DNA of 38,650 bases from Patescibacteria group bacterium (GTDB lineage Bacteria; Patescibacteriota; Minisyncoccia; UBA6257; 02-FULL-45-10c). How positions within the stretch are numbered: position 1 is the first letter of the stretch; each line of letters begins with the position of its first letter. This document shows positions 14,799 through 16,298 of this stretch, one piece after another. The DNA lies in assembly GCA_018969615.1 (NCBI GenBank), contig JAGWYA010000002.1, positions 67,070 to 105,719 of the forward strand, written 5' to 3'. Below the pieces are notes generated by a model that did not search any database, had not been told where the DNA came from, and saw only the letters and a list, made by a program, of their open reading frames with translations. A program made the translations under genes and the position numbers.

Positions 14799-14943
14799 GT
14801 TTATAAAGTTATTTTAACATAATAGTTCAACTCCCGTAATCTGCCCCCCCTTATTTTTCGCAACCTTTTATAATTTTGGAAAACTCAAAAATAAGCGATA
14901 AATAAAGCGAAATTCACCCTTTTTGAGAGTTCAACTCTCATGA

Positions 14944-14960
14944 TGTGGAGACGACGGGAA
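14944..14960. repeat. 17-bp direct repeat of the tmRNA 3' end (candidate attachment-site scar)
   Basis: tgtggagacgacgggaa is identical at 14944-14960 and 15132-15148. Confidence 0.8.
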
Positions 14961-15090
14961 CAAGGCGTCGCTCGCGGCTGGATAGCCCGCTCGCTTGCTT
15001 AAACCCTCCGCCGCACCCCGACCCCCGTCTGGGACACCTTCGGTTTCCCATTCCTTCCTGATACGGGGTGCGGCTGGTTCAATTCCCGCA

Positions 15091-15124
15091 TAAAATAAAA
15101 TACCACCCATTAAAACGGGTGGTA
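15091..15124 (-). terminator. Intrinsic terminator of ssrA
   Basis: Minus strand TACCACCC-GTTTTAAT-GGGTGGTA followed by TTTTATTTTA. Confidence 0.85.
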
Positions 15125-15133
15125 CTTTATGTG

Positions 15134-15776
15134 TGGAGACGACGGGAATTGAACCCGTGTCCGAATCATGTCCAAATAAGGATTGCTACGGATGTAGCCG
15201 GATTTGAAAGCGCTGAAAGAGGCAGAACCCGGCAAAACACTTTCAGCTTTTCCGGAATTGTTCGTTATCGTTGCCGGAAGTGGCGATAATATAACCTGCT
15301 GAGTGTGACACCGGAATTTCCTTAGCAGATATCAGGAGTTCCGATGCTTCGGCGCAAGGCCGGAGAATGGACTAAGCGACAGCTAATGCTGGCATTCTCA
15401 GTCTGCTTGATAAGTTTGCACTTATTAGGCTTGCGATTTTTTAACGAAGTTGCGACTTCTGCGCAAATGTTTCCACTACATTGAAATCATTGATTTTGTA
15501 TTAATTTCCAGGAGCGAGGAGAAAATCGTATCTGTAGATACCTTTTCGACAAGCAACGCAGAAATTGATCAAAATCAAGATTCCCAAAGGGTAAGGAAAT
15601 TTTTATTACCTTCTGCGTCGTTCCTCCTCGATGTGGTCTAGACCACGATCTCGTCGTCACTCCTTGAATCTAATTCAAAATTTCTCTTATCAATGAGTGA
15701 AAATATTTGCGCAGAAGTCGCTTCGCACTTCGATCCGATCCTTATTTTTCAATGACCGTCGATGCCTAACGTCCCC
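15134..15776 (-). ncRNA. ssrA: tmRNA (SsrA), unusually long (643 nt), predicted tag ANLSSRLRMPALAVA
   Basis: Acceptor GGGGACG (5' end at 15776) pairs CGTCTCC (3' end, one G-U); T-arm ACGGGTTCAATTCCCGT; P2 AAATAAGGAT/ATCCTTATTT (10 bp); resume codon GCA and tag ORF at 15419-15372 (GCA AAC TTA TCA AGC AGA CTG AGA ATG CCA GCA TTA GCT GTC GCT TAG); adjacent to smpB. CCA not encoded. Confidence 0.9.
15452..15721 (-). other. 270-nt self-complementary insertion within tmRNA pseudoknot PK1
   Basis: Bounded by exact 17-bp inverted repeats (15452-15468 and 15705-15721); lies between P4 5' strand and P3 3' strand; removal gives a 373-nt tmRNA. Confidence 0.8.
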
Positions 15777-16209
15777 ATTCGCGGCGCAGTTCGCGCTCGG
15801 TCTCACGGCGTTTGATCGTTTCACGTTTGTCGTGAGCTTTCTTATGCCGTGCGAGGCCTACCGCTACTTTTATTCTGCGGCCTTTATCATAGATAGACAA
15901 GGGCACCATCGTCAAGCCGCCTTCCTTCGCTTTGCCGAGCAAATAACGCAGTTCTTTCTTGGTTAGGAGGAGTCGGCGGGTCCGTCCGGGATCGTAGCCG
16001 GCGGGGGCGTTCTTGATCTGGAACGCGGGGATCTGCGCGTTGATCAGCTCCGCGCCGTCCGGCCGGATGAGGACATAGGAGCCGGTCAGGTTCGCGTGCC
16101 CGGCCTTGATCGATTTCACTTCCTGTCCGATCAGCGCAACGCCGGCCTCGTAGGTCTCGAGGATCTCGTAGTCGAACCGGGCTTTTCTGTTTTCCGCGAG
16201 CGTTTTCAT
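15766..16209 (-). CDS. smpB: SsrA-binding protein SmpB
   Basis: ENRKARFDYEILETYEAGVALIGQEVKSIKAGHANLTGSYVLI...HKKAHDKRETIKRRETERELRR; stop codon lies inside the tmRNA 5' end. Confidence 0.96.
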   Translation of the reverse strand: MKTLAENRKARFDYEILETYEAGVALIGQEVKSIKAGHANLTGSYVLIRPDGAELINAQIPAFQIKNAPAGYDPGRTRRLLLTKKELRYLLGKAKEGGLTMVPLSIYDKGRRIKVAVGLARHKKAHDKRETIKRRETERELRREWGR

Positions 16210-16298
16210 CACTTTTTATTATAGAGAGAATACATTGACTTTACGAATGGCGTTCCGTACGCTGGGGGTAGTAGATCGACAAAGAAGGGAGGGTAACG

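Follow-up and report, generated by a model that had tools for sequence, protein, structure and literature searches.

The tmRNA gene (ssrA) analysed here is very probably interrupted by a mobile insert, a 270-bp block within pseudoknot PK1 that is one copy of a dispersed double-hairpin palindromic DNA element of about 270 bp. This confidence covers the mobile-insert claim only, not the fate of the RNA. The unusual form of the gene is real, and is caused by a widespread palindromic mobile element. tmRNA is the rescuer of stalled ribosomes. The window is the whole stretch of DNA analysed (38,650 nucleotides, from a Patescibacteria group bacterium with a tiny genome); its features are listed below by window position, with the basis of each assignment.

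15135..15776, minus strand: tmRNA gene (ssrA), interrupted; tRNA-like ends, tag ORF, and ARAGORN call once the block is removed.
15770..15776, minus strand: acceptor stem, 5' strand GGGGACG; sequence.
15135..15141, minus strand: acceptor stem, 3' strand CGTCTCC; sequence.
15738..15747, minus strand: P2, 5' strand AAATAAGGAT; sequence and block-free ARAGORN fold.
15174..15183, minus strand: P2, 3' strand ATCCTTATTT; sequence and block-free ARAGORN fold.
15723..15732, minus strand: PK1, 5' strands, P3 CGAAGT (15732-15727) and P4 GCGA (15726-15723); covariation in relatives.
15433..15450, minus strand: PK1, 3' strands, P3 ACTTCG (15450-15445) and P4 TCGC (15436-15433); covariation in relatives.
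15372..15419, minus strand: tag reading frame ANLSSRLRMPALAVA*; ARAGORN, block removed.
15766..16212, minus strand: smpB-like ORF; its last 11 nt overlap the tmRNA 5' end.
15452..15721, minus strand: inserted palindromic element, 270 bp; belongs to a dispersed family with about 120 copies found.
15705..15721, minus strand: terminal inverted repeat, left (GCGACTTCTGCGCAAAT); inverted-repeat analysis.
15452..15468, minus strand: terminal inverted repeat, right; inverted-repeat analysis.
15596..15684, plus strand: arm 1, in inverted orientation to arm 2; match to arm model R1 at 48.6 bits.
15583..15591, minus strand: mini-hairpin CCCTTTGGG between the arms; found in most copies.
15490..15578, minus strand: arm 2; match to arm model R1 at 90.5 bits.
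15515..15550, minus strand: conserved core of arm 2, GTCGAAAAGG-hairpin-CGATTTTCTCCTCG; core pattern shared among copies.

The tRNA-like ends, P2, PK1, and the tag ORF identify the gene as a tmRNA, located on the minus strand directly downstream of the smpB-like ORF (named from sequence and synteny rather than from a profile). Acceptor stem, P2, P3, P4, tag ORF, and T-arm were found on the sequence where the initial annotation had placed them; the span measured 642 nt, one less than the 643 nt given there. No call was made by ARAGORN on the window or on the isolated full-length gene with the block; on the block-deleted sequence, a 372-nt tmRNA with tag ANLSSRLRMPALAVA* was called. The expectation that removal of the block leaves a tmRNA of normal size therefore held, with 372 nt in place of the predicted 373. 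With the block present, the gene scored 40.2 bits against the Rfam tmRNA model (RF00023; cut-off 47), in an alignment that misses the actual 5' end and covers little of the block. It is because the element interrupts the gene that ssrA is missed here by annotation tools; no second tmRNA was found in the window's genome (96.6% complete). The canonical PK1 proposed earlier is supported by strand pairs that co-vary among relatives, for P4 (GCGA/UCGC, GCGG/CCGC, GUGG/CCAC, GUAGA/UCUAC) as well as for P3 (CGAAG/CUUCG, CAAGG/CCUUG); judged from compensatory differences across seven family sequences, PK1 is real. The stop of the smpB-like ORF lies 11 nt inside the tmRNA 5' end (15766-15776, GGGGACGTTAG), and 5'-end processing of a joint transcript would therefore strip the smpB stop codon.

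Within PK1, the block separates the 5' strand of P4 from the 3' strand of P3; as described before, it is exactly 270 nt long (15721-15452) with exact 17-bp inverted ends. Its order is terminal stem, arm 1, CCCTTYGGG-like mini-hairpin, arm 2, terminal stem; the nested complementary pairs reported inside it proved to be part of the element's own arm structure. Both halves match the arm covariance model (E 1.8e-24 and 2.9e-11), the training set of which includes arm 2 of this copy and excludes its arm 1; by these matches, the palindromic structure of the block is not due to chance. Because one arm repeats the other in inverted orientation, the whole element can also fold as one long hairpin, with an outer stem in the tmRNA copy of 17 bp, one mismatch, 8 bp, and further pairs. 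Stop codons are present in every frame of the element copies examined.

Empty sites in relatives show the block to be an insertion, as proposed earlier, and no ancestral structure. In G001, the only same-genus genome compared, the tmRNA is of the usual kind and 372 nt long, and at the window's PK1 site the block is likewise missing from the other family tmRNAs recovered; tmRNA matches above the cut-off were obtained in 14/17 family genomes. In G009, the tmRNA (above the cut-off) spans 649 nt, with an insert of 269 nt after GGTGTTAT in the PK2/PK3 region; in G011, a partial match below the cut-off was obtained, as for the window, with a 275-nt insert near PK4. According to the alignment, the length of the former and the partial match of the latter are due to insertion of the element in both tmRNAs. 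A core, GTCGRAAAGG-hairpin-CGATTTYCTYCTCG, is common to the window, G009, and G011, on the opposite strand in G011; shared at three sites and in both orientations, it indicates three entries of the same element into tmRNA genes. Further interrupted tmRNAs were sought in genomes rich in the element, among low-scoring tmRNA matches; the element copies retrieved from G241 and G234 lay outside tmRNA.

The joined flanks at the window's site are equal in length to the empty sites of G007 and G016, the length of the G011 site agrees with the empty site of G008 (alignment judged by eye), and a 16S insertion site is at most 1 nt longer than its empty counterpart; target duplication at insertion amounts to 0-1 nt. 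As far as flank lengths indicate, the insertion is clean and lacks the usual target duplication. An assembly artefact might be suspected from the repetitive nature of the element and from the multi-contig draft status of nearly all genomes compared, but is highly improbable given the exact junctions, the distinct tmRNA sites in three independent genomes, and empty-site lengths that match to 0-1 nt.

The mobile element named earlier as one option is supported by a dispersed family with differing sites and both orientations; the other two options, excision by RNase III and a retained arm, concern the fate of the transcript. The core pattern gave 24 exact matches in 11/17 family genomes (reversed control pattern, 0) and 25 stretches in 85,488 species genomes, with named hosts mostly Candidatus Harrisonbacteria and other Parcubacteria MAGs; the single Rhizobium match is probably due to chance. 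Copies were searched for with a covariance model of one arm (R1), which matched in 16/17 family genomes and 63/246 order genomes; among 389 genomes sampled across the phylum, four positive genomes lay outside the order. Both arms were above threshold, inverted (-+) and about 18-20 nt apart, in 88/127 merged units. After removal of duplicates, 122 units remained, 104 of these with a clear terminal inverted repeat and a median element length of 271 bp (IQR 269-274). The element is short, non-coding, bounded by terminal inverted repeats, and dispersed, as MITEs are; no autonomous partner transposon sharing its ends was found in a limited search, and a phage or plasmid source was considered and gave no match. 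No earlier description was found in the literature searched, which lay mostly outside subscription papers, and the palindromic family is apparently undescribed so far.

Given these data, the arm is most unlikely to be, in place of a mobile insert, an ancestral or adaptive RNA domain with a selected function in tmRNA. In favour of such a domain, the terminal stem is perfectly paired in the window's copy; against this, the arm is missing in G001 and at the window's site in other family members, and the element family also occurs at unrelated loci. The reading is largely refuted by the empty sites and dispersed copies.

For the preferred reading, a mobile insert, we infer transposition from dispersal and empty sites. 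As the sequence shows, the element of about 270 bp inserted cleanly into PK1, with P4-5' on one side and P3-3' on the other; it would be non-autonomous, mobilised in trans by some enzyme, and perhaps moved via folded single-stranded DNA. HUH-type transposition would fit the mode of insertion. No transposase linked to the element was found. Y1_Tnp (PF01797) is present in 4/17 family genomes and was not found in the window's genome (G000) or in 12 others of the 17, and therefore no mobilising enzyme can be named. As a sub-case, a REPIN-type element could be mobilised by a RAYT (Y1/HUH), acting in trans or since lost: paired inverted hairpins form a unit, target duplication is absent, and non-coding copies are dispersed. 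This sub-case is unlikely, since Y1_Tnp was found neither in G000 nor in the 99%-complete G005 with at least 6 copies, and since the size and long terminal repeats of the element are unlike those of REPINs. RAYT mobilisation within the window's genome itself was discarded, the Y1 transposase not being found there.

Covariation is strong: in the 20 arms compared, standard pairs fill 94.7% of pair cells, versus 78.0% in shuffled and 41-50% in slid controls, and double compensatory changes occur in 18/27 pairs. Mismatches in the terminal stem are G.T/T.G in 42 cases versus A.C/C.A in 36, neither element strand folds better overall, and the sense strand of copies in RNA genes has 10 G.U versus 12 A.C, which also speaks against a functional tmRNA domain. 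Given similar numbers of G.T and A.C and no strand preference, whatever maintains the pairing seems to act on the DNA rather than through RNA folding; selection on pairing at the RNA level was rejected on the same grounds, G.U being no commoner than A.C and the strands equivalent.

Within a copy, agreement between the two ends is 95.1% over the outer 17 bp, against 59.3% deeper inside; because the best inverted repeat defined the element ends, a choice that raises complementarity at the edges, this contrast is somewhat inflated. Left ends agree between copies at 52.8%, versus 42.5% for shuffled letters, and 89/92 outer-15 sequences are distinct. The outer 17 bp are thus variable yet self-complementary across 103 copies (e.g., 15705-15721 / 15452-15468), a clue to an unusual mobility mechanism; that the terminus is re-templated at each insertion is one possibility. 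A wider proposal is doubtful: a new class of mobile DNA in Patescibacteria, its terminal stem as if re-templated per insertion, tolerated in rRNA, tmRNA, and tRNA loci because it is removed from the RNA, with the flanks perhaps ligated in certain genes.

Among copies with enough flank, 9/99 span an ORF (joined flanks give a spanning frame of at least 150 aa), versus 65% of nearby control points; in-frame insertion was rejected as an account of the ORF-spanning copies, stops being present in all frames of the copies examined. Going by these predicted frames, ORFs are avoided by the element and stable-RNA genes are not, and RNA genes therefore seem to tolerate it, unlike protein genes. This raises the question of whether the RNAs concerned are fragmented, spliced, or enlarged.

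Most copies are located outside stable-RNA genes. Those inside comprise a 16S copy in G005 (E. coli position ~645); 23S copies in G016 (~229), L122 (~230), G002 (~290), and L126 (~350-400; all E. coli positions); two clear internal 23S sites in G013, with a third copy at the 23S 5' end; one further 23S copy in G007; and one more copy in G223. The window's own genome also has a 23S copy (L154, G000:C11, 570-836; E. coli position ~1585). By a rough estimate, the number of in-gene RNA copies is about what their share of non-coding DNA would give, and tolerance, not targeting, is therefore the safe statement. The 5' end of a tRNA is the RNase P cut site. Six copies (L160, L168, L127, L195, L152, L184) lie 0-4 nt from a tRNA 5' end, versus fewer than one expected (rough; ~45 tRNAs, ~75 kb non-coding DNA), and none was found within 30 nt of a tRNA 3' end. 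In G030, a tRNA-Val(UAC)-like gene is interrupted in the anticodon stem (L125, arm at 1501-1589); two other tRNA-Val(UAC)-type genes are present, and the stem of the interrupted gene is irregular. This copy was set aside as evidence of splicing: the gene is redundant and irregular, and proves nothing.

As to the RNA, the terminal stem in the transcript might be cut by RNase III to give a gapped, two-piece tmRNA, the pieces of which would stay associated through P2, PK1, and the tRNA-like domain, akin to rRNA intervening sequences. The element's terminal stem is a plausible RNase III substrate. Here, a structured RNA gene harbours an insert with inverted-repeat ends, relatives have the site empty, and RNase III is encoded by the window's genome (15/17 family genomes in all), as for known RNase III-processed intervening sequences. 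By this analogy, we regard cutting of the tmRNA transcript at the terminal stem as evenly balanced between true and false. Retention of the element as an arm pointing outward from the pseudoknot is possible, with our judgement inclined slightly against it.

Excision with ligation of the tmRNA, 16S, and 23S flanks, that is, a new kind of intron, is improbable. Clean insertion without duplication, tolerance in 16S, 23S, and tmRNA genes, and a structured and conserved core would all suit an intron. Against it stand the strong depletion in ORFs, although a spliced intron would be harmless there; the like pairing of both strands, with G.U no commoner than A.C; the location of the majority of copies outside stable-RNA genes; and the nature of the sole copy found in a tRNA-like gene, the redundant and irregular tRNA-Val of a relative. 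The block has no group I or II match at E up to 10; a known intron of either group was thereby rejected, the Rfam intron models giving no match at that level in 14900-16000.

Intervening sequences (IVS) of 23S rRNA are removed by RNase III without ligation. The element resembles them in that it has hairpin ends, occupies a clean site within the gene of a structured RNA, and is tolerated there, and some of its copies lie in 23S variable regions; it differs in being genome-wide, in occurring in tmRNA, 16S, and 23S, and in its conserved two-arm core, and cleavage is here a prediction. A 2024 survey of CPR rRNA insertions lists group I-like introns, homing endonucleases, and short uncharacterised insertions, for which an IVS type is proposed (PMC11270868); a term search of its main text gave no mention of palindromes or tmRNA. 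Some unexplained CPR rRNA insertions are now identified as copies of one dispersed palindromic family.

The nearest structural analogues are REPINs and CGTC-tagged REPs. REPINs, or REP doublets (PMC3116915), likewise consist of two inverted hairpins as a dispersed non-coding unit, and head-to-head dimers of CGTC-tagged REPs (PMC3733652) recall the CGTC that adjoins the element's core stem; CGTC REPs are also without a known transposase (PMC3733652). Unlike both, the element measures 270 bp, with a variable terminal stem of 17-19 bp and arms of about 90 nt, no RAYT was found for it, and copies lie inside rRNA and tmRNA genes. CGTC-tagged REPs are defined by a CGTC tag and an 8-9 bp stem starting with AT (PMC3733652); the stem of the element starts with GGAAA. 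Rickettsia palindromic elements, 100-150 bp palindromic repeats within genes of a reduced-genome lineage (PMC3767692), are similar in these respects; however, they insert in frame into ORFs (PMC3767692), which the element avoids.

In a 2025 survey, only standard, group I intron (T-loop), and permuted forms of tmRNA were distinguished, with the remark that introns at other tmRNA sites may have been missed (PMC11915505). As in the intron form (PMC11915505), the tmRNA gene is interrupted here, but in pseudoknot regions rather than the T-loop and without group I features. The cut product would, like permuted tmRNA, be two-piece; unlike it, gene order is standard and the break would fall in PK1. 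The element is a further way of breaking up a tmRNA gene.

Two minor observations were made. The tmRNA 3' end TTCCCGTCGTCTCCACA (15132-15148, minus strand) is directly repeated about 190 bp downstream, at 14944-14960, and this direct repeat resembles the attachment-site duplication of an integrated element. At L050, L051, and L190, the element termini resemble Rho-independent terminators (GC stem and T run) on both sides.
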